A stretch of 64,000 bases of DNA from Salinisphaera sp. (GTDB taxonomy: Bacteria > Pseudomonadota > Gammaproteobacteria > Nevskiales > Salinisphaeraceae): NCBI RefSeq assembly GCF_002729955.1, contig NZ_PBYA01000032.1, positions 1 through 64,000 on the forward strand. The letters are read 5' to 3'. Under the pieces are notes generated by a model that ran no database searches, was not told where the DNA came from, and saw only the letters and a list, made by a program, of their open reading frames with translations. Shown here piece after piece: positions 27,970 through 39,712 of this stretch. How positions within the stretch are numbered: the first letter of the stretch is position 1; every line of letters begins with the position of its first letter. The position numbers and the translations under genes were made by a program.

Positions 27970-29955
27970 ATGACTCAGCATACATATGACAAAGACCGCC
28001 GCCGGCTGCTGCGCGCCATGGGCGCGACCGGCCTGCTGGCGGGCTTCAATGCGCTACTTCCCGCCTATGCCCGCGACGGCATGACACGCCACCTCAATAG
28101 CGCCGCCGCTCAGGTCCCGGGCGGGGCGGCCCGCGATGTCCTCATGGACGTGCATGTGCGCCGCGAGATGATCGATATCGCCGGCGGCCGTGCATCGGCC
28201 ATCACGCTGAACCACACCACGCCGGGCCCGATCGTGGAGCTTTGGGAAGGCCAGAACGCCCATCTGCGCGTGCATAACCACCTGGACGAGTCCACTTCGA
28301 TCCACTGGCACGGCATTCTGTTGCCGTTCCAGATGGACGGCGTACCCGGCGTGGCGTTTCCCGGCATCGACCCGGGCGAAACGTTCGAAGTCGATTTTCC
28401 CGTCCGCCAGGCCGGCACCTACTGGTATCACAGCCATTCCGGGCTGCAGGAGCAGGTCGGCCAAACCGGGCCGATCGTCATCCACTCGGCCGAGGACGAC
28501 GGCATCAACGCCGATCGCGAGTACGTGATCGTGCTCAACGACTGGACCTTCGAAGACCCGCACCGGCTGTTGGCAAAGCTCAAGGAGATGAGCGACTACT
28601 ACAACTTCAGCGAGCGCACGCTCGGCGATCTGGCCGAGGATTTCCGCAAGTCGGGCGTGGCCACCACGCTGAAAGATCGGCTGGCCTGGGGCGACATGCG
28701 CATGAGCCCGCGCGATATCGCCGACGTGACCGGCTATACCTACAGCTATCTCATGAACGGCGTACACCCGGACGCCAACTGGACCGGTCTATTCACGCCG
28801 GGCGAGCGGATCCGCCTGCGCGTGATCAATGCCTCCGCCATGACCTACTTCAACGTGCGCGTACCAGGTCTGCCCATGCAGGTGGTCGCGGCCGACGGCA
28901 AGGAGGTCCAGCCGGTCGAGACCGACGAATTCCAGATCGGCGTGGCCGAGACCTTCGACGTGGTGGTCCAGCCCAGGGCCGATCAGGCCTACACGATCAT
29001 GGCCGAAACCATGGACCGCAGCGGCTATGCCCGCGGCACCCTCGCGCCGCGCGCGGGCATGGTCGCGCCCGTGCCGGCGCTGCGCGAACAGCCGCAGCGC
29101 ACGATGGTGGATATGGGCATGGACATGAGCGAAATGGACATGGGCGGCATGACGATGCCGCACGAGAACGGCGCGAAGCCGATGGGTCATGGCCAGATGG
29201 CGATGGACCACGGCTCGATGAAGACGACGGACATGTCCAAAAAGGATGCCGGTATGGCCGGCATGTCGCATCAGGGCCACAAGATGGATGGCGCGAAGAT
29301 GTCGGACAAGATGGCCGGCATGGACCATGGCCACAAGAAGATGGCCCACGGCACCGGCCCGAACGCCGGCACCATGGGCACGGGCGCGATGATGGAACAG
29401 TCCGGCCCGGTCATCGCCAAGCATGGTCCCGACATGCACGGGGCGGGCAATATCAACGTTGCCAACGTCCAGCGCGATCGCCTGGGTGAACGTGGTACCG
29501 GGCTCGAGGACGTGAACCATCGCGTGCTCACCTACAGCCAGCTGCGCAATGTCGTGCCGATGCAGGATCGTCGCGAACCCTCGCGCACGATCGAGGTGCA
29601 CCTGACCGGCAACATGGACCGCTACATGTGGTCGTTCGACGGCGTGAAGTACTCGGACGCCACGCCGATCGAGTTTCCCTACGGCGAACGCATCCGGCTG
29701 GTGCTCGTCAACGACACCATGATGGAGCACCCGATCCATCTGCACGGCATGTTCATGGAGCTGGAGAACGGCCAGGGCGAGCATCTGCCGTTCAAGCACA
29801 CCCTGAGCGTGCTGCCCGGCTCACGGGCGTCGCTACTGATCACGGCAGACGAACCGGGCCGCTGGGCCTTTCACTGCCATCTGCTCTATCACATGGAAAT
29901 GGGCATGTTCCGCGTCGTGCGTGTGAGCGATCAATCGGGAGACCAGAATGCTTAA
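27970..29955 (+). CDS. copA: copper resistance multicopper oxidase CopA/PcoA
   Basis: Tat signal DRRRLLRAMGATG; IHWHGILLPFQMDGVPG; MDMSEMDMGGMTMP Met-rich repeats; HPIHLHGMF; FHCHLLYHMEMGMF. Confidence 0.95.
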   Translation: MTQHTYDKDRRRLLRAMGATGLLAGFNALLPAYARDGMTRHLNSAAAQVPGGAARDVLMDVHVRREMIDIAGGRASAITLNHTTPGPIVELWEGQNAHLRVHNHLDESTSIHWHGILLPFQMDGVPGVAFPGIDPGETFEVDFPVRQAGTYWYHSHSGLQEQVGQTGPIVIHSAEDDGINADREYVIVLNDWTFEDPHRLLAKLKEMSDYYNFSERTLGDLAEDFRKSGVATTLKDRLAWGDMRMSPRDIADVTGYTYSYLMNGVHPDANWTGLFTPGERIRLRVINASAMTYFNVRVPGLPMQVVAADGKEVQPVETDEFQIGVAETFDVVVQPRADQAYTIMAETMDRSGYARGTLAPRAGMVAPVPALREQPQRTMVDMGMDMSEMDMGGMTMPHENGAKPMGHGQMAMDHGSMKTTDMSKKDAGMAGMSHQGHKMDGAKMSDKMAGMDHGHKKMAHGTGPNAGTMGTGAMMEQSGPVIAKHGPDMHGAGNINVANVQRDRLGERGTGLEDVNHRVLTYSQLRNVVPMQDRREPSRTIEVHLTGNMDRYMWSFDGVKYSDATPIEFPYGERIRLVLVNDTMMEHPIHLHGMFMELENGQGEHLPFKHTLSVLPGSRASLLITADEPGRWAFHCHLLYHMEMGMFRVVRVSDQSGDQNA

Positions 29956-30757
29956 ACAGTCGATGACCACAACGATCGGTGTGACGGCCCTCGCCCTCGG
30001 GATGACCCTGCCGGCGCATGCCGGCTCAAACGGCAAGGCCGATCTGGATTCCGTCATACCGCAGGGGCCGGCGGATCCGAACAGCGGCGCGCCGCTGGCC
30101 TGGAAAAAGCCGATCCACGACCAGCAGATCCACAAGTTCTTTTTGATCGACCGGCTCGAATACGGGGACGTGGACGGCACCAACAACTATCTCTGGGACG
30201 CCCAGGGCTGGATCGGCGGCGATTACAACAAGCTGTGGCTCAAGACCGAAGGCGAGGGTCCGATGCGCGGCGGCTCGCCCGAAGATACCGAGTTCCAGGC
30301 GCTCTATACCCGCACGATCGCGCCGTTCTGGAGTGCCCAGGCCGGTGTGCGCTACGACGTCAATCCCAACCCGGACCGCGGCTTTGCCGTACTCGGCCTG
30401 CAGGGGCTGGCGCCGTACTGGTTCGAATCCGACACGGCGCTGTTCGTCAGCGAGGACGGGGACGTGAGTTTTCGCGGCGAATTCGAGTACGAGCTGCTGC
30501 TTACCCAGCGGCTGATCCTTCAGCCTCGGGCCGAGATCAATGCCTCGGCTCAGGAGGTGCCGGAATATGGCCTCGGCCAAGGTCTCAACAACACCGAAAT
30601 GGGCATCCGGTTGCGCTATGAGATGCAGCGCGAGTTCGCCCCCTACGTCGGGGTCCGCTGGGAGCAAACCTATGGCGAAACCAGGGATATCGCCCAGGCT
30701 GAAGGCGAAGAGACGTCGTCGACCGCCTTCGTGGTCGGTATCCGCGCCTGGTATTGA
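29948..30757 (+). CDS. copB: copper resistance outer-membrane protein CopB/PcoB
   Basis: LIDRLEYGDVDGTNNYLWDAQGWIGGDYNKLWLKTEGE...VGVRWEQTYG... Confidence 0.95.
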   Translation: MLKQSMTTTIGVTALALGMTLPAHAGSNGKADLDSVIPQGPADPNSGAPLAWKKPIHDQQIHKFFLIDRLEYGDVDGTNNYLWDAQGWIGGDYNKLWLKTEGEGPMRGGSPEDTEFQALYTRTIAPFWSAQAGVRYDVNPNPDRGFAVLGLQGLAPYWFESDTALFVSEDGDVSFRGEFEYELLLTQRLILQPRAEINASAQEVPEYGLGQGLNNTEMGIRLRYEMQREFAPYVGVRWEQTYGETRDIAQAEGEETSSTAFVVGIRAWY

Positions 30758-30983: not shown

Positions 30984-31340
30984 ATGCAGAAGAACACTAT
31001 TAAACAAAGCTTGCTTCTTTTACTTTTAGCCTCGGGCTCCTCCGCAGCCTTGGCTGAAGCGGACACTGCCATGGCCCCTGGGTTGCCAGACGGCGCTGTA
31101 GTAATAGCTCAAGCAAAAGCAGTCGATACTTTGAAAGAATATCAATCAATGTATGAAGGTCAGATGATGGATCGGCACACAATGCAGATGCTAGACGTGG
31201 ATGATAACGGTGAAATCTCACGTGAGGAGTTCATGCATGTGCATGAACTTATATTCGACACTGCCGATCAAAACAAAGATGGCAAACTCGAAAAAAGCGA
31301 AATGAAAAAGGGCAGTCTGCCGAAAATGGAAACCAGCTAG
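30984..31340 (+). CDS. secreted EF-hand domain protein
   Basis: Signal peptide; DVDDNGEISREEF and DQNKDGKLEKSEM. Confidence 0.8.
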   Translation: MQKNTIKQSLLLLLLASGSSAALAEADTAMAPGLPDGAVVIAQAKAVDTLKEYQSMYEGQMMDRHTMQMLDVDDNGEISREEFMHVHELIFDTADQNKDGKLEKSEMKKGSLPKMETS

Positions 31341-31350
31341 CATTTTATTT

Positions 31351-31390
31351 ATACGTCACCCTAGCTAGTTGTTATAGGGTGACGTATTTT
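31351..31390 (+). terminator. strong intrinsic terminator
   Basis: TACGTCACCCTA-gctagttgtta-TAGGGTGACGTA followed by TTTT; 12-bp perfect stem. Confidence 0.88.
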
Positions 31391-31562
31391 CCGACTCAAC
31401 ACGTCGCACAAACTGGTCGCCTACTTGCAAGCGGCCGGGATAAAGTGCTAGCACTTGCAGCAAGATTGAATTCTGGTTCTAAAAGATAAATCGGCGCCAA
31501 GCGAGACCGAAAAATGTTCTCAAAAACACTTTTATCTTACATGGCTATTTTCTACTAAAAAT

Positions 31563-31913
31563 ATGGCGTTAACTGGGCTTGTAATCATTTTCATAACTTT
31601 CTTCGCCGGGGCACTCATTGTCCAGAAGCTGCCCACTCGCGCCGATCACCATCAATTAGCCGAATCTCAAAAGGTGCCGTTTCTTGGTGGCTCGAGCCCC
31701 AACACCCATGCCTGGCAGCGATACCACATACGCTACTACTCGATGACTCTCCTATTCATCGCGTTCGAAATGGAGATGATGTTTATGTACCCGTGGGCCG
31801 TCGTGTATGTCACCGAAGGCGTCAAGGCCCTCGCTGAAATGGGCATGTTCCTCGCCATCCTCACGGTAGGCATTCTCTATGGGTGGCGCGAAGGTATCTT
31901 TAGATGGCAGTAA
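31563..31913 (+). CDS. nuoA: NADH-quinone oxidoreductase subunit A-like
   Basis: KVPFLGGSSPNTHAWQRYHIRYYSMTLLFIAFEMEMMFMYPWAVVY. Confidence 0.88.
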   Translation: MALTGLVIIFITFFAGALIVQKLPTRADHHQLAESQKVPFLGGSSPNTHAWQRYHIRYYSMTLLFIAFEMEMMFMYPWAVVYVTEGVKALAEMGMFLAILTVGILYGWREGIFRWQ

Positions 31914-33166
31914 CCATACTCGGGCGTCTTGCAGCGCGAGCTCCGGTTCCCGTTTTCGTGGCTATGGGGCGCGACGGCGCGCCTGCGATCGAGCACTTGC
32001 TCAAGAGTGGTGATATCGACTTCACCGCAACGCCCCGACACGCCAACATTTTATTGGTCGCGGGCCGCACTCGAGAGAGTGACCAACCCTATCTAGATCG
32101 CCTCCACGACCAAATGCCGCACCCACGTGCGACATTCTGGTGGGGAGACGCGCATTCGGACGACATAGATGAAGCACGGCGCTCCGCCTCAGCTGACGAT
32201 CCAGTCGCGCCACTGCGTGCGCTTTATCGCAAACTGATTGGCGGCTCCTATGCATCGGAAACCCACCGTCTGTCCGACGAGCCACCCGCCCCTTGGCGTG
32301 GCAGGGGCGATCACGGTCAAGGTGGAGAAGGGATGATGGGCGGCGTGCCTTACGGGCGCATGATGCCTATGCCCCCGACGCCAGACATTCGCGACGGGCT
32401 CGCGTTAGATGTCTACCGTACTCAGGTTGGCCCCTTCATGCCTTACTGGCCCGCTGGATTGATACTAGAGGTGACTTTTCAAGGCGACGTAATTCAATCA
32501 GCCGAAGTCGTTCAGCCACCCTATCCACCACGCGACATTGATCGTGAACCATTCGATCGCTTGCTGCACGAGCAGACGCCCCTGGCACAAATCGAGCGCA
32601 CACGCGCAACGCATCACTTGGCATGTATCGCCCGGGTATTGTCGCTTGTCGAATTACCGACGCTCAGCCGGCGGGCTCAGATCGTGGCAGCACGCATACG
32701 CGCGAACGAAACTGTTGCTATCGGTCCGCTGCGCAAAGCCGCCGCCCGCGCAGGTTTGATGGCCGCGATCAAGCCGGGGCTCGGTCGGATCGATGACGAT
32801 CTAGCGTGTGAACTCGGCGGCCCGGTGCGACGCGCTGCTGGACACGTGCTCGACAGTCGCAACGATGATCCGACCTACACGCGACTGGGCTTCACCCCTG
32901 TCACGCAAAAGCAAAGCGACTGTCAAGCGCGCGTGGCGCAGTGGTTCGACGAGGCCGAACAAGCGCTAGCTCTCGCGTCGGCCGCACCCCACATCCTGAT
33001 CGCCCAAGGCCAACTGGCCGAGCCACCCTGGGCTCTTCGGGCACCGCCGCTTGATTATCGCGTGACCGAGCTGCTCCCAGGACTCGAATGGAGTGAAGCG
33101 CTACTCGTGCTCAACAGTTTCGATAGCGCCGCGTTATGCCGAATGGCGCCATTGGAGACGCCGTGA
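31904..33166 (+). CDS. divergent NuoB-NuoD-like fusion with Met/Gly-rich linker
   Basis: NuoB-like HANILLVAGRTRESDQPYLDRLHDQMPHPRATFWWG; NuoD-like CELGGPVRRAAGHVLDSRNDDPTYTRLGF and THHLACIARVLSL; linker GGEGMMGGVPYGRMMPMPP; no NuoB CC motif. Confidence 0.6.
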   Translation: MAVTILGRLAARAPVPVFVAMGRDGAPAIEHLLKSGDIDFTATPRHANILLVAGRTRESDQPYLDRLHDQMPHPRATFWWGDAHSDDIDEARRSASADDPVAPLRALYRKLIGGSYASETHRLSDEPPAPWRGRGDHGQGGEGMMGGVPYGRMMPMPPTPDIRDGLALDVYRTQVGPFMPYWPAGLILEVTFQGDVIQSAEVVQPPYPPRDIDREPFDRLLHEQTPLAQIERTRATHHLACIARVLSLVELPTLSRRAQIVAARIRANETVAIGPLRKAAARAGLMAAIKPGLGRIDDDLACELGGPVRRAAGHVLDSRNDDPTYTRLGFTPVTQKQSDCQARVAQWFDEAEQALALASAAPHILIAQGQLAEPPWALRAPPLDYRVTELLPGLEWSEALLVLNSFDSAALCRMAPLETP

Positions 33167-34077
33167 CCCAGATCGCTCTAAGCACTGCCTGGCTTGCTTT
33201 CTTGCTTGGCATGGCATGGTATGTCGCTGTACTTGATGGGCTGTGGACCGCCGCTCGAGAACGGCGTTTACCACGCGCGCCTCTGGCCAATCCAATCTAC
33301 CGATGCGCCGCAGTTCTGCGTCAACAGTCCAACCTAACCGAAACGCCGGATTTGCTAAATTGGAGGTTGGCACCTGCGTTGTATGCTGCGCTCGCGGGTA
33401 GCGGTGTCGCGATCGTGCCATTCTCCAGCGCGAGCGTTCTTGCGGATCTCGAAGTGGGCATTGTCTGGTGGGGCGCAGTCGAGGCGCTAACAGTAGTGGT
33501 TGTATTCCTGCACGGTTGGTCAGCCAATGCTCAGTTCGGCCTGATCGGTGCCTACCGCTATGTCGCCATCGGGCTGCCGGTAATGCTGATCAGCATGTTC
33601 ATGCTGATCGCGGCAGCATTGCCCGCCGAGTCTTTGGCCCTCCCACAAATAGTCGAATCCCAGCGTGGCCTTTGGAACGTCATCCGCCAACCGTTAGGGC
33701 TACCGCTGTTTCTACTCCTCGGTCTGTCTCTAAGCTTCAGAGGTCCGTTCAACTACGCGGACTCGGCTGATATCGCAGGGGGAACCGCCGCTGAGGTATC
33801 CGGCGCGCCAAGGTTGGTCTGGGAGTTCGCGAGGCTCGCAATGCTTACGGCGGTGGCCGCAATGGCGGCCAGCGTCTTTCTAGGTGGCTACCTTGGCCCG
33901 TGGCTGCCCGGGCCGGCATGGTTGGTGCTCAAGACGGCTACCTTGCTTCTAGTCCTGGTATGCCTCACCGAGCAGCTGGCACGGATCTCCCCGAGCCGAA
34001 TGATGACGCTGATCTGGACAACGCTCCTGCCGCTATCGTTTTTGCATTTGGTATGGGCAGGAGTACTGGCACTATGA
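33163..34077 (+). CDS. nuoH: complex I subunit H-like (NuoH)
   Basis: PDLLNWRLAPALYAALAGSGVAIVPF...LVWEFARLAMLTAVAAMAASVFLGGYLGPW; GTG 33163. Confidence 0.8.
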   Translation: MTQIALSTAWLAFLLGMAWYVAVLDGLWTAARERRLPRAPLANPIYRCAAVLRQQSNLTETPDLLNWRLAPALYAALAGSGVAIVPFSSASVLADLEVGIVWWGAVEALTVVVVFLHGWSANAQFGLIGAYRYVAIGLPVMLISMFMLIAAALPAESLALPQIVESQRGLWNVIRQPLGLPLFLLLGLSLSFRGPFNYADSADIAGGTAAEVSGAPRLVWEFARLAMLTAVAAMAASVFLGGYLGPWLPGPAWLVLKTATLLLVLVCLTEQLARISPSRMMTLIWTTLLPLSFLHLVWAGVLAL

Positions 34078-34676
34078 ACGTAATCGATATCGCATTCTGG
34101 ATCTTCGCCGCTATCGCGGTGATAAGCGGTTGGCGTGTCTTCTGCACCGACTCGATGGTTCGCGCTTCGTTCCTCCTGTTGCTGTCATTTATCGCAGTTG
34201 GCTTGATCATGGTGTTGCTCAACGCGCCCTATCTCGGCATCGCGACCGTCTTCATGATGGCAGTGGAAATGATGGTAATGGCGCTGTTCATGGTCATGTT
34301 CATGATGAATCCGGCGGGCCTGAACCCGATGATGATGGTGCACCAGCACCGTTTTTCGATCGCGGCGGGCGTGTTTGTCTTCGCCACACTCACCGGCCTG
34401 ATCTGCGTTACACGCTTTACCTCCAACCCGGTCGATCCGGGCCTCGATTCCGTTGCGAGCCTAGGCAAGGAACTGCTCGGCAATTCAATGCTGATCTTTG
34501 AAACCGCTGGGGTCACGCTGCTGGCGACCATGGTGGCCAGCGTCATTCTATCGAGCCGCAGCGGACGCTTTGGCACGGCCGATACCGGCGCCGTACCGCC
34601 GCCACTCGAACCCGGCGGTGAGCCAGCAGGGCGGCAGCCCGAGCAGCACAGTGGACATGCTCATCACCATCATTGA
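34074..34676 (+). CDS. nuoJ: complex I subunit J-like (NuoJ), C-terminal HHHH
   Basis: MNVIDIAFWIFAAIAVISGWRVF...AVGLIMVLLNAPYLGIATVFMMAVEMMVMALFMVMFM; ends GHAHHHH. Confidence 0.85.
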   Translation: MNVIDIAFWIFAAIAVISGWRVFCTDSMVRASFLLLLSFIAVGLIMVLLNAPYLGIATVFMMAVEMMVMALFMVMFMMNPAGLNPMMMVHQHRFSIAAGVFVFATLTGLICVTRFTSNPVDPGLDSVASLGKELLGNSMLIFETAGVTLLATMVASVILSSRSGRFGTADTGAVPPPLEPGGEPAGRQPEQHSGHAHHHH

Positions 34677-34689
34677 TCGAGAAATAGCC

Positions 34690-34995
34690 ATGACACTCCC
34701 AGCGATATTGATCGTCGCCGCCGCCCTCATCGGCATTGGGCTCTACGGCACGTTGTCGCAGCAGTCATTCGTGATGCTGATGATGGGCCTCGAGTTGATG
34801 CTCAACGGCGTGATGCTGGCGGCTGTTGGCTTTTGGTCGCTTACGGCAGGTGGCCTGCCAACAGGGCAGCTGTTGGCCATCATCGTGATGGCGGTGATGG
34901 CAGTAGAGATGGCCGTCGGCTTCGCATTGATCACTGCGGTCTATCGCAGTCGCCAGGCGGATGTCACCGAAAGCCTGACAACACTGAAACATTGA
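34690..34995 (+). CDS. nuoK: complex I subunit K-like (NuoK)
   Basis: IGIGLYGTLSQQSFVMLMMGLELMLNGVMLAAVGFW. Confidence 0.9.
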   Translation: MTLPAILIVAAALIGIGLYGTLSQQSFVMLMMGLELMLNGVMLAAVGFWSLTAGGLPTGQLLAIIVMAVMAVEMAVGFALITAVYRSRQADVTESLTTLKH

Positions 34996-34997
34996 TA

Positions 34998-36821
34998 ATG
35001 CTCTGGCTTGTTGCCCTGTTCCCACTGCTCGCGGCTGTGATCGTTCACGCATCGCCGATGCGGAACCGCGCCACTCTAGGCGCTTCAGGCTGTGGTGTAT
35101 TGCTGGTCACACTCGTGCTCACGGTTTTCGCCGGCCTAGAGGGTTGGGTCGGACGAATTGCCTGGAGCATACCGCTGCAGTTCGAGGTGGCGTTGACAAC
35201 AAGCTCTGTCGTTATGGCTTTGCTGGTGTCGGTCATCGCCCTGCCCGTGCTCGCCTATGCCGCGGTCCACGAACGCCGGCGCGACTTGAACCGCTTGGTA
35301 TCGCTGCTCTTACTGTTCGTCGGCGCCATGCTGTTACTAGTAATCGCGGCGGACCTCATTACGCTGCTTATCGGCTGGGAACTGGTCGGCGCCTGCTCAT
35401 GGGCGCTGATCGGGCACGAACGACAACACGCATCCCGTGCGGCCTCGGCGCGCTATGCGTTCGTGATGACCCGTTTGGGCGATCTCGGGCTTTTCGTGGC
35501 GGCCATGGTTGCCTTCAGCGATCGCGGCACTTTCGCGTTCGCCGCGATCGAAACTCTCGGCGCACCGCAAAAGACTATTCTGGTGGCCGGATTATTGTTA
35601 AGCGCGGCCTCGAAATCCGGCCAGATTCCGTTCGCGCCATGGCTTTTCCGCGCCATGGACGGGCCAACATCGGTTTCGGCTTTGTTGCATTCCGCCACCA
35701 TGGTCGCCGCGGGAGCCTACCTGTTGATCCGGCTCGAGCCGACGCTCGCTCAGGTGCCGTGGTTTGGTCCTGCGGCAATTTGTATCGGTCTCGGCACCGC
35801 GCTTGCAGGCGGTCTGACCGCCATGCTGCAGCCTCACGCAAAGAAATTACTGGCAGCGTCCACCTCCGCACACTACGGCTTAATGTTCGTCGCGGTCGGC
35901 GCCGGCTACCCTGCCGTCGCGCTGACGCATCTCGTCGCGCATGCGTTTTTCAAGGCATTGCTGTTTCTCAGTGCAGGCGTCGCCGGCCGCGAAGCCGATA
36001 GCTTCTATCTGACAAAGATGGGATTCGGGCGCGTGCTGCCGATTACAGCCTCGGCAACCGCGGTCGGCGGGTTCGCATTGGCAGGCATACCTCCGCTGGG
36101 CGCAGCGTGGACAAAGGAAATGGTCGTAACAGCCGCAGGCCATTTCAGCCCATGGCTGGCATTCGTGGTCATGCTCGCCGGCGCCTTGAGTGCGGCCTAT
36201 GCCATGCGTTTCGTCTATAGCGCCTACGGCGTCGCCGTCAACGACACGAGCGCCACTACGAGAACGACAGAAACCATAGCGATCTCATCGCTAGCTGCCG
36301 CTTGTTTGGCGCTTTCCTTATATTGGCTGCCAGGCATACAGCAAACGCTGGGCGCTTGGCTCGCAACCTCGTTTCCGACGCCTCCACCCTGGGAGACCAT
36401 CGGTTCACTCCTGACTGTCGGCTTTGGCCTCTACACCGGGCTGTTGATCGCACGCAAACATCCCGCGCTGGGCGAAGACGGCCCTGTTTCAGCCTACGCT
36501 GACTGGTTGGGCTTGCCCTTTGCGATCAATCGCGTCGTCGAGCGTCCTTTTTCGGCGCTCACACAGCACTGTGCCACGTTCGACGATGCCGTGATTGATG
36601 GCACCGTACGCCGGGCCGGTGCCAGCGGACTCTTCGCCGCACGCGTTGCGTATCGAGGACTGGACAGACTGGCGGACGGGCTTCCGGAGGGCGTCACTCG
36701 TTGGCTTGCTCTTAGCGGCGAAGACAGCCGCCGTTTTCAAACCGGCCTTTCACACCATTATCTCGCCTTTATGGCCGCGGGTGCTGTGGTGTTGGCAATT
36801 ATTCTGTTTGCGGGGCGCTAA
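34998..36821 (+). CDS. nuoL: complex I antiporter-like subunit L (NuoL)
   Basis: IGWELVGACSWALIGHER, SKSGQIPFAPWLFRAMDGPTSVSALLHSATMVAAGAYL. Confidence 0.93.
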   Translation: MLWLVALFPLLAAVIVHASPMRNRATLGASGCGVLLVTLVLTVFAGLEGWVGRIAWSIPLQFEVALTTSSVVMALLVSVIALPVLAYAAVHERRRDLNRLVSLLLLFVGAMLLLVIAADLITLLIGWELVGACSWALIGHERQHASRAASARYAFVMTRLGDLGLFVAAMVAFSDRGTFAFAAIETLGAPQKTILVAGLLLSAASKSGQIPFAPWLFRAMDGPTSVSALLHSATMVAAGAYLLIRLEPTLAQVPWFGPAAICIGLGTALAGGLTAMLQPHAKKLLAASTSAHYGLMFVAVGAGYPAVALTHLVAHAFFKALLFLSAGVAGREADSFYLTKMGFGRVLPITASATAVGGFALAGIPPLGAAWTKEMVVTAAGHFSPWLAFVVMLAGALSAAYAMRFVYSAYGVAVNDTSATTRTTETIAISSLAAACLALSLYWLPGIQQTLGAWLATSFPTPPPWETIGSLLTVGFGLYTGLLIARKHPALGEDGPVSAYADWLGLPFAINRVVERPFSALTQHCATFDDAVIDGTVRRAGASGLFAARVAYRGLDRLADGLPEGVTRWLALSGEDSRRFQTGLSHHYLAFMAAGAVVLAIILFAGR

Positions 36822-36822
36822 A

Positions 36823-38307
36823 ATGCTCACGGCCACCATTCTCATGCCATTGCTGGGTGCGTTCGCGCTCGCTTGTACACGTCTAAAAGAACCGACATAC
36901 CGATGGCTCGCATGCAGCGTCGGCAGTGTGCCCTTGGTCCTACTCGTGGCGGTCTGGATCGGCTTCGATACCAGTACGGGCGCCTCCGCGTTTCAGTACG
37001 TCGTCGAATACCCTTGGATTCCGGCGCTTGGCATCGGCTGGCGTATGGGCGTCGACGGTATCGCGCTAACGGTGGCTACGATGAGCGCGCTGTTGTTCGT
37101 CGCTGCGATGGCATGGCCCGCCGACACACGGGGACGGGCACGAGAATACTACGCGTGGTTTCTCTTTCTCGAAGCTGTGTCGCTCGGCGTATTCCTGACT
37201 CTGGATCTCGCGCTGTTCTATGTCTTTTTCGACCTGAGCCTCGTCGGTCTGTTCTTTCTTATCGGGCGCTGGGGCCACGGCGATGCCGAGCGAGCCGCGA
37301 TAAAGTTTTTCGTCTATACCTTTGCCGGGTCGTTAGCCATTCTGCTGGCAATTATTGGTCTTGTTTTGGTGACCGACCCTCTTACCTTCGACATGCGTAC
37401 GCTAATCGCGGATCAGCCACTCGCGGGTATGGATCTGCGTGCGACGCTGGTTCTGGCCGGATTCATCATTGGCTTTGGTATCAAGACGCCGTTCGTACCC
37501 TTGCATACATGGCTGCCCCCAGCGCACGTGAATGCCCCTGGGCCGGCCTCAGCCGTGCTCGCCGGTGTGCTGCTTAAGATGGGCACTTACGGTTTGATTC
37601 GAATCCCCTATTCGATGCTCGGCGAGACCTTTGGACGCTATGCTTTCGCCCTGGCCGTTCTGGCGGTGATCTCGATTCTATGGGGCGCGTTGGTGTCGAT
37701 GGCGCAACGCGACCTCAAACGACGTATTGCTTACACCTCAGTGAATCACATGGGCTATGTGTTGCTGGGTATCGCGGCAGCCGCGACGATCGGCGGCGAG
37801 CAGGCCGCACGGCAGATGGCGTTGACAGGTGCCACCGTGGAAATGGTCGCCCACGGCCTGATCACCGGCGCGCTGTTCTTGATCTGTGGCGCGCTCTGGC
37901 AGCGCACTGGCGATTATAATCTCGAGCACTACGGCGGTCTGAGCCAGATCGCCCCGAATCTCACTCGCTTTACGATTCTCGCGTCATTCGCGAGCCTGGG
38001 TCTGCCCGGGCTCGCCGGTTTCGTGGCCGAGCTACAGATATTCGTTGGTGCTTTCAGCGTCTATCCGTGGCTGGCCGCCACCGCGCTCCTGGGTATTCTC
38101 ATTACCGCTGCGCTTTTCCTACAGATGCTGCAACAGCTGTTCTTCGGAGCGCTGCCCACAGATCGGGGGGATTTCAGGGACCTCGCGCGCGTCGAGATCA
38201 TCACCTTGGCGATACTCGTACTGCTGATCGTGATAATCGGAATATATCCGAATTGGCTGCTGACGCCCATCAACAGTGCAACTGGCCTATTGACGGGTGG
38301 GGTCTAG
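36823..38307 (+). CDS. nuoM: complex I antiporter-like subunit M (NuoM)
   Basis: GWRMGVDGIALTVATMSALLF, GIKTPFVPLHTWLPPAHVNAPGPASAVLAGVLLKMGTYGLIR. Confidence 0.93.
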   Translation: MLTATILMPLLGAFALACTRLKEPTYRWLACSVGSVPLVLLVAVWIGFDTSTGASAFQYVVEYPWIPALGIGWRMGVDGIALTVATMSALLFVAAMAWPADTRGRAREYYAWFLFLEAVSLGVFLTLDLALFYVFFDLSLVGLFFLIGRWGHGDAERAAIKFFVYTFAGSLAILLAIIGLVLVTDPLTFDMRTLIADQPLAGMDLRATLVLAGFIIGFGIKTPFVPLHTWLPPAHVNAPGPASAVLAGVLLKMGTYGLIRIPYSMLGETFGRYAFALAVLAVISILWGALVSMAQRDLKRRIAYTSVNHMGYVLLGIAAAATIGGEQAARQMALTGATVEMVAHGLITGALFLICGALWQRTGDYNLEHYGGLSQIAPNLTRFTILASFASLGLPGLAGFVAELQIFVGAFSVYPWLAATALLGILITAALFLQMLQQLFFGALPTDRGDFRDLARVEIITLAILVLLIVIIGIYPNWLLTPINSATGLLTGGV

Positions 38308-38308
38308 C

Positions 38309-39712
38309 ATGCCGGTTGGCGACGTTCTCCCCGAACTCAGCGTTTTAATCAGCGCGGTCACGTTGCTTTTGGCCGCAAGTTTCATGCGCGAGCGAGATCA
38401 GTGGTTGGCTGCGCCGGGCGCGCTCATTGGCCTTACGGTGGCATTCGCGTTTTGTGTTGCTCAACTGGGCGAAGCGCCGAAATTGACTTTCTCTGGAGTC
38501 TGGGCTCTGGACGGTGCCAGCATCTGGGCTCGCCTGATCATTTTGGTCGCTGCCGCCTTGAGCGTTCTGTTGACGCCCGAGTGGCTGCGCCAAGACCGTC
38601 GCCACGGTGAATACTATGCCGTCTTAATGCTTGGAACACTCGGGGCCATGCTGCTCGCCGGGGCGACAGACCTGATGCAGTTGATCATCGCCGTTCTGCT
38701 GTCCTCCGTCACGGGGTACACGTTAGCCGCTTATCATCGCAACTGGCCGCTGTCGGCTGAAGCCGGCATGAAATATTTCTTGGTCGGCGCGCTGGCCAAC
38801 GCCCTACTCGTGCTCGGTGTGACGCTGATGTTCGGGCTGTTTGCCACCACGGACTACGGCGAGCTGGCGTCGCGTACGAAAGACGGCGCCCAATCAATGA
38901 CGCTCGTCGCATTCAGCCTCGTCATTGTAGGTGTGGCATTTAAACTTGCAGCAGTACCGGCCCATACCTGGATGCCGGATGTCGCTGAGGGCGCCCCGCC
39001 GCCGGCGGCTGCCTTCCTCACTATTGCACCTAAAGTAGGCGCCGCCATTGCGCTTGCCCGCTTCGTCGATCTGTTCCCTCAAGACATCCCTTGGCGCACC
39101 GTGGTTGCCACGATCGCGATCGCGACCATGTCCGTAGGCAATTTGGGCGCACTCGGGCAGAACGATGTGCGGCGAATGCTGGGCTGGTCTTCGGTATCGC
39201 AATCTGGCTACGCGCTGATGGCGATCACTGTTCTCGGTCTGGATCCCTACGCGCTACCGGCCTTGCTGTTCTTTCTCGCAAGTTATGCGGTCGCGAATCT
39301 CGCAGCATTCGGTGTTGTGACACAGCTGCGCGGACGCACGAACCTAGACGACTATCGCGGCCTCGCGATCGCCCATCCACTACTCGCGGCCGCACTGATC
39401 CTTAGTTTTCTTTCGCTGGTGGGTATCCCACCGCTGGCAGGCTTTGTGGGCAAGCTGGCACTGTTCGTCACGACGATCGAATCGGGTTACGCATGGCTGG
39501 CTGTCGTGGCTCTGATCAACACCGTCGTATCACTAGTTTATTACTTACGTGTGCTTGCGCCCGTGTATTTCGCCGAGCCGGCGAGGCCCATGCATACGCT
39601 CGGCTACTCTGCCGCCGCCGCTGTGGTGCTATGCGCGTTCTTCACCGTCACTCTTGGTGGTTTGGCAGAGCCATTCTGGCGAATGCTCGCTGAGACGACT
39701 CTTCTCCCATAG
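38309..39712 (+). CDS. nuoN: complex I antiporter-like subunit N (NuoN)
   Basis: KYFLVGALANALLVLGVTLMFG, FKLAAVPAHTWMPDVAEGAPPPAAAFLTIAPKVGA. Confidence 0.93.
   Translation: MPVGDVLPELSVLISAVTLLLAASFMRERDQWLAAPGALIGLTVAFAFCVAQLGEAPKLTFSGVWALDGASIWARLIILVAAALSVLLTPEWLRQDRRHGEYYAVLMLGTLGAMLLAGATDLMQLIIAVLLSSVTGYTLAAYHRNWPLSAEAGMKYFLVGALANALLVLGVTLMFGLFATTDYGELASRTKDGAQSMTLVAFSLVIVGVAFKLAAVPAHTWMPDVAEGAPPPAAAFLTIAPKVGAAIALARFVDLFPQDIPWRTVVATIAIATMSVGNLGALGQNDVRRMLGWSSVSQSGYALMAITVLGLDPYALPALLFFLASYAVANLAAFGVVTQLRGRTNLDDYRGLAIAHPLLAAALILSFLSLVGIPPLAGFVGKLALFVTTIESGYAWLAVVALINTVVSLVYYLRVLAPVYFAEPARPMHTLGYSAAAAVVLCAFFTVTLGGLAEPFWRMLAETTLLP

Follow-up and report, generated by a model that had tools for sequence, protein, structure and literature searches.

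We have analyzed a gene cluster related to respiratory complex I in a 64,000-nucleotide stretch of Salinisphaera sp. DNA (the window). Positions 31563-39712 of the forward strand carry eight overlapping or adjacent genes in the order nuoA, BD, nuoH, nuoJ, nuoK, nuoL, nuoM and nuoN, where BD is a fusion of NuoB-like and NuoD-like sequences. Pfam and NCBIfam models name the seven membrane subunits NuoA, H, J, K, L, M and N with E values from 1e-17 to 1e-143, and BD is the sole hydrophilic subunit. An earlier note on this DNA had described seven tightly packed membrane subunits and a NuoB-NuoD fusion. The profile matches confirm both, as do an AlphaFold model and Foldseek comparison for the fusion. 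The features of the cluster are as follows.

31563..31913, + strand, NuoA-like subunit (PF00507, E = 9e-24), with the family motif A-F-[ED]-M-E-M-x-[FY]-M-Y-P-W-A-V-V at codons 67-81
31904..33166, + strand, BD, the NuoB-NuoD fusion of 420 amino acids (domain matches, alignment, AlphaFold, Foldseek)
31904..32257, + strand, NuoB-like domain of BD, without Fe-S cysteines (alignment, Foldseek)
32276..32401, + strand, invariant BD linker DEPPxPWxGxGxxGQGGxGMMGGxPYGRPMAM, residues 125-166 (alignment, AlphaFold model)
32402..33163, + strand, NuoD-like domain of BD, with the quinone-His loop replaced (profile match, alignment, Foldseek)
33136..34077, + strand, NuoH-like subunit (PF00146, E = 7e-38)
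34074..34676, + strand, NuoJ-like subunit, with a methionine stripe and a His-rich C-terminus (PF00499, E = 1e-18)
34254..34307, + strand, methionine stripe of the third transmembrane helix (TM3) of NuoJ, residues 61-78, MMAVEMMVMALFMVMFMM (motif comparison of family with canonical)
34644..34673, + strand, His-rich NuoJ tail, ...HSGHAHHHH (His count compared with canonical NuoJ)
34690..34995, + strand, NuoK-like subunit (PF00420, E = 1e-17)
34998..36821, + strand, NuoL-like antiporter subunit (PF00361, E = 1e-50)
36823..38307, + strand, NuoM-like antiporter subunit (TIGR01972, E = 7e-143)
38309..39712, + strand, NuoN-like antiporter subunit (TIGR01770, E = 2e-101), with a possible GTG start at 38297

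Residues 293-360 of BD match the Complex1_49kDa model (E = 6e-6), and residues 36-82 match NuoB models (E ~2e-5). Its AlphaFold model has a predicted local distance difference test score (pLDDT) of 86 and a predicted template modeling score (pTM) of 0.84, and its Foldseek matches are NuoD/49-kDa and NuoB/PSST chains. As modeled, BD retains the folds of both its parents. The four cysteine ligands of the NuoB [4Fe-4S] cluster N2 (CC..C..C) are missing from the window BD and from an alignment of 58 relatives, as the note had said of the fusion itself; they are also missing in the type II clusters described below. In the same window sequence and alignment the quinone-ligand loop of NuoD, GPQHPxxHG, has become GPFxPxxPxG. 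A sequencing error that masks the Fe-S ligands can be ruled out, since dozens of independent relatives equally lack them. On the basis of these residues the BD fusion is predicted to be redox-dead.

No nuoC, E, F, G or I gene is present in the cluster, in agreement with the note, and none is present in the clusters of its relatives. In the source genome NuoC and NuoF domains each occur once, within a complete, canonical nuo operon on a separate contig (C8), which is the second operon that the note had proposed should be sought. The genome therefore has no second NuoC or NuoF that could serve the cluster as electron input, and an unlinked redox partner elsewhere in the genome is rejected on this ground. 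Formate dehydrogenase was rejected as a partner, as it lies near only a few loci.

Conservation in BD is highest in the linker that joins the NuoB-like and NuoD-like parts, at residues 133-156 (GxGxxGQGGxGMMGGxPYGRPMAM). In the model of isolated BD only the segment of residues 138-166 has pLDDT below 50, which would fit a loop that folds only against other subunits. H137 of the linker was considered as an invariant metal ligand and rejected, as the position varies between H, F and Y.

Loss of the electron path might indicate a degenerate or horizontally passed remnant of complex I without function, and one broken copy is known, on the Vreelandella sulfidaeris plasmid AP019515.1, where several subunits are split into two or three fragments. 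We find a remnant barely credible. Compared with Salinisphaera orenii, each of the eight genes has a ratio of nonsynonymous to synonymous substitution rates of 0.05-0.15, which contradicts a remnant; the cluster is evidently under purifying selection, judged by these ratios. In addition the cluster is conserved over two phyla, and a similar cassette in Marinobacter is co-expressed (PMC8233155).

A scan of 84,980 species genomes gave 78 loci, distributed between Gammaproteobacteria (Salinisphaera, Halomonadaceae, Rhodanobacter and Bowmanella), Alphaproteobacteria (Aurantimonas, Fulvimarina and Rhodobacteraceae) and Actinomycetota. Together with plasmids this search of gene order, which the note had also put forward, gave ~100 loci with the eight genes, falling into three types. 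On all contigs of sufficient length that could be read clearly, the order A-BD-H-J-K-L-M-N is shared and there is no redox subunit. Eight genes held in a constant order across ~100 loci cannot be there by chance. The type found in the window (type I) was complete in only 4 of 321 gammaproteobacterial genomes drawn, as expected for an accessory element. The closest relatives in the species-genome scan are Salinisphaera contigs. The source genome (3.84 Mb) contains a second copy of the cluster on contig C5 (553-8708), with 76% identity in BD and some bases masked as N. It lies after a copB fragment, with CDF, NhaA-like and RND efflux genes downstream. In 11 genomes we also observed weak, sub-threshold matches to the NuoJ family (PF00499), of ~190-260 amino acids, that are neither of the canonical nor of the BD-cluster type.

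We compared the key residues of the membrane subunits using E. coli numbering, so that the alignment of antiporter lysine and glutamate residues suggested by the note is included. NuoL keeps E144, D178, K229, H254, H338, K342 and K399. NuoM keeps K234, K265, H322, H348 and E407, while its E144 is D in type I and E in type II. NuoN keeps K217, K247 and K395, and has lost the glutamate of TM5 (E133 to L). NuoK keeps E36 and E72, with R25R26 changed to QQ, and NuoA keeps E81. The lysine, glutamate and histidine residues of the proton path in NuoL and NuoM and the glutamates of NuoK are kept in all types, except for the E144D change in type I NuoM. The quinone end is different. In NuoH E157 is lost, D213/E216/E220 have become N/D/D and E228 is kept; in NuoJ M takes the place of Y59 and V that of G61. 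The R25R26 change of NuoK also belongs to this end. By sequence the membrane arm is complete, with most of its proton-path residues, and its quinone end has been rebuilt.

The residues that are conserved in the family and differ from canonical subunits are frequently methionine in NuoA, NuoJ and NuoK (20 of 73), compared with 6 of 149 in NuoH, L, M and N (Fisher p = 1e-6). TM3 of NuoJ has the motif MMxxEMxxMxx[FYILV]M in all 100 readable family loci, including 19 of 19 of type II, and in none of 24 canonical sequences; the one miss is the second copy in the source genome, which has masked bases at the motif. Met62, 66, 69, 73 and 77 fall within an 80-degree arc on one face of the helix. This face aligns with Y59/I63/L66/V70 of E. 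coli TM3, which from their structural position we take to adjoin the E-channel. NuoJ also has a His-rich tail, with at least three histidines in the last 20 residues in 56 of 74 type I sequences against 1 of 22 canonical NuoJ (p = 1e-9). Very long His-rich NuoJ C-termini were observed at two loci, with 19 and 35 histidines per protein.

The three types carry what seem to be three different metal-binding elements, placed in the BD linker in types II and III. Type I has the Gly/Met-containing BD linker and the His-rich NuoJ tail. Type II surfaced in a class-wide search and has the same eight genes with a long BD, ~580-720 amino acids in most. In 17 of 19 loci one to five copies of a YTCPMHPEVV...CPKCGM repeat stand in tandem in this BD, separating its NuoB-like half from its NuoD-like half. 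The repeats match the heavy metal binding domain (HMBD, PF19335) with E values of 1e-39 to 1e-45, within the same protein as a Complex1_49kDa match (E = 1e-14 to 1e-16). Type III is found on actinobacterial plasmids of M. avium, Arthrobacter FB24, Pseudonocardia and Rhodococcus. Its BD linker is rich in His and Met, such as MDHDAMNHGEHGD in M. avium pHP17a, with 32-52 histidines per protein in three of the four (M. avium, Pseudonocardia and Rhodococcus, which read clearly). If the complex did not handle metal, it would be difficult to see why one metal-binding element has repeatedly been exchanged for another.

Such handling need not be transport. Metal bound on BD and NuoJ could open or close a flow of H+ (or Na+/K+), tuning the proton motive force or pH under metal stress with the metal itself unmoved. 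The position of the metal modules on the peripheral cap, like that of a sensor, and the largely intact antiporter subunits would suit such a conduit. We nevertheless consider it unlikely, as it would leave unexplained why all types conserve a methionine stripe within the membrane. The stripe, the HMBD repeats and the His-rich tails are equally unaccounted for by an Mrp-like Na+/H+ antiporter serving in salt or pH stress that has become a chance passenger on metal islands. Many of the hosts are marine or halophilic and NuoL, M and N are related to Mrp subunits, but NuoA, NuoH and BD are retained, no MrpB, E, F or G was found in the gene content of the ~100 loci, and the cluster is also found on plasmids from soil and mycobacterial isolates. 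We regard this as very improbable. The decoupled antiporter proposed in the note might still be what the cluster encodes, though it too leaves these three features unexplained.

The neighborhood of the cluster points to copper. The features upstream of nuoA in the window are as follows.

27970..29955, + strand, copA/pcoA-type multicopper oxidase, a copper-resistance neighbor (open reading frame; with copB it recurs beside relatives)
29948..30757, + strand, copB, outer-membrane copper resistance protein (PF05275, E = 6e-90)
30984..31340, + strand, EF-hand protein (PF13202, E = 6e-11), between copB and nuoA
31351..31387, + strand, terminator-like hairpin between the cop/EF-hand unit and the nuo-like unit (-21 kcal/mol, z = -6.38, followed by TTTT)

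The copper link made by the note is borne out, and copA and copB do lie upstream, but the cluster is not directly downstream of them; the EF-hand gene and the hairpin intervene. The strength of the terminator-like hairpin suggests that the nuo-like genes may have a promoter of their own. An inverted-repeat operator was sought in 31380-31570 and none was found. EF-hand proteins, several of them rich in Met and Gly, adjoin the cluster at seven loci in unrelated genera as well as in the window, and EF-hand genes make up 4 of 141 immediate neighbors of the relatives' clusters.

Neighboring genes were annotated by codon-scored calling. Copper genes lie within 14 kb of the cluster in 13 of 15 plasmid loci, covering all types; in a control, one of seven 30-kb stretches taken from seven of the same plasmids had a copper gene. 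The plasmid neighbors are a heavy-metal P-type ATPase, CsoR/CueR, a CopZ-like protein, multicopper oxidase, and CopB/C/D or CusA. In Rubrobacter tropicus the genes for a P-type ATPase (CopA), a CsoR-like regulator and a copper ion binding protein (CopZ) are followed on one strand by nuoA-BD-H-J-K-L-M-N. CueR is beside the Roseivivax cluster and CsoR beside that of Pseudonocardia. Among the 78 type I loci a copA-like oxidase is near 21 and copB near 14. The presence or absence of copB alone was set aside as a weak signal, as it is common in the group (33 of 61 genomes); adjacency is the informative measure.

Other genes recur around the cluster. In Halomonadaceae egtB, often with egtD, is directly 3' of the cluster at 15 loci. 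Ergothioneine synthesis is a thiol pathway that could be linked to metal stress; EgtB/EgtD were rejected as a core part, being downstream in Halomonadaceae. Genes for DUF305, DUF4396, DUF6629, TVP38/VTT and sulfocyanin-like proteins recur in the islands, in the flanks of five loci, and are possibly further copper genes.

In Marinobacter atlanticus a nuoADHJKL cassette is located inside a copper operon, and RNA-seq showed co-expression with the copper genes (Eddie et al. 2021, PMC8233155). Its authors report no nuoM or nuoN and one extra gene, and suggest copper redox as an energy source. Beyond that paper we found no other description of such a system in the literature searched, and papers on copper in Cupriavidus CH34 and Alteromonas do not mention it. 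Applied to the present cluster, the Marinobacter suggestion is that oxidation of Cu(I) at the metal sites powers outward pumping of ions (PMC8233155). The metal sites do occupy the position of the former redox module, and CopA, a multicopper oxidase, is often encoded nearby. There is, however, no electron acceptor, with Fe-S, flavin and quinone ligands all missing, and Cu(I) is scarce as a fuel. Moreover CopA is periplasmic whereas BD caps the cytosolic side. We think a pump driven in this way rather unlikely; together with the metal-gated conduit it is the chief alternative to our preferred reading.

The neighbors also bear on direction. A proton-coupled importer delivering copper or another metal to the cell could have the same anatomy, which would suit either direction. 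The genes alongside are for detoxification, i.e. CopA/B, heavy-metal P-type ATPases, CusA and CueR/CsoR, and we judge import to be quite improbable.

Taking these observations together, we think it somewhat more probable than otherwise that the product of the cluster is a relative of complex I with eight subunits and no redox function, which takes part in the handling of copper (soft metal) as a proton-driven exporter. The evidence for a role in copper handling is strong. That metal is transported, and the direction, substrate and proton coupling of transport, we infer from sequence. The complex is a homolog of complex I and yet no complex I, with neither its Fe-S ligands, its quinone site nor its NADH module; nor is it an Mrp antiporter, a DAB system or a group 4 hydrogenase. 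The note had suggested an ion-translocating machine with a different partner. The machine is borne out; the partner is no redox enzyme, and metal-binding modules in BD and NuoJ hold the position of electron input.

In the mechanism that we propose, the BD linker and the NuoJ tail would collect Cu(I) on the cytosolic side and pass it into the cavity that formerly held quinone. From there the metal could follow the methionine stripe in what was the E-channel (NuoA/J/K), and the entry of protons via the NuoL/M/N-NuoK axis would drive its release into the periplasm. This would be the coupling of complex I in reverse, in a metal/H+ antiporter that uses many protons. Once outside, the metal would be oxidized by CopA and sequestered by CopB. 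For CusA, an unrelated proton-driven antiporter, a ladder of methionines has been put forward as the route of Cu(I) (review PMC7558416).

Several points weigh against this reading. Two of the 15 plasmids have no nearby copper gene, in a sample that includes close relatives, and most type I loci have neither copA nor copB in their 10-kb flanks. HMBD and His/Met motifs are not specific for copper. The methionine stripe of NuoJ is placed along the channel by homology with E. coli TM3. Finally, with the glutamate of NuoN TM5 and E157 of NuoH lost, coupling cannot equal that of complex I.

We put at about even the chance that this is an unrecognized class of metal transporter, in which a complex I membrane arm with copper-binding modules forms a proton-driven Cu(I) exporter within copper-resistance islands of Proteobacteria and Actinomycetota. 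In that case bacterial copper resistance would gain a new kind of machine and, if transport were shown, the cluster would represent a new class of metal pump. The genes are carried on plasmids, some conjugative, of marine, soil and clinical isolates, and are now annotated as NADH dehydrogenase. For complex I the central open question concerns the coupling between reactions at the quinone site and protons that are moved far away in the membrane arm. A natural homolog with a full membrane arm, no electrons and another ligand at the same end would allow coupling to be studied free of redox chemistry.

Respiratory complex I (NDH-1/Nuo, 14 subunits) has homologous NuoA, H, J, K, L, M and N in the same order; the B and D folds are present here, and the proton-path residues of L, M and K are kept. 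Unlike complex I, the cluster is without C, E, F, G, I, Fe-S, flavin and the quinone histidine, and has a fused B-D, added metal-binding modules and the methionine stripe. The 11-subunit complex I-like enzymes and F420H2 dehydrogenase (Fpo) likewise have no NADH module and the same membrane arm, but they keep NuoB, C, D and I with Fe-S clusters, a redox adaptor that is absent or dead in the present cluster. Mrp (CPA3) Na+/H+ antiporters are ion machines that also do without redox chemistry and contain NuoL/M/N- and NuoK-like subunits; they have MrpB/E/F/G and no NuoA/H/B/D. Group 4 [NiFe] hydrogenases and Ehr similarly place varied substrate modules on a complex I-like arm. These keep the NuoB-type Fe-S cluster, Ehr losing the NiFe ligands only, while neither that cluster nor the CxxC pairs of NiFe ligands were found in BD (31904-33166). 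No carbonic anhydrase-like DabA/CupA partner, as in the DAB/CupA CO2 systems, was found in the clusters or annotated flanks. CusA-type HME-RND transporters and P1B ATPases (CopA) are alike in a methionine-lined Cu(I) path (CusA), metal-binding domains and location in copper islands; their folds are unrelated, and the driver here would be a complex I arm. The Marinobacter atlanticus nuoADHJKL cassette likewise places complex I-like genes in a co-expressed copper operon (PMC8233155).

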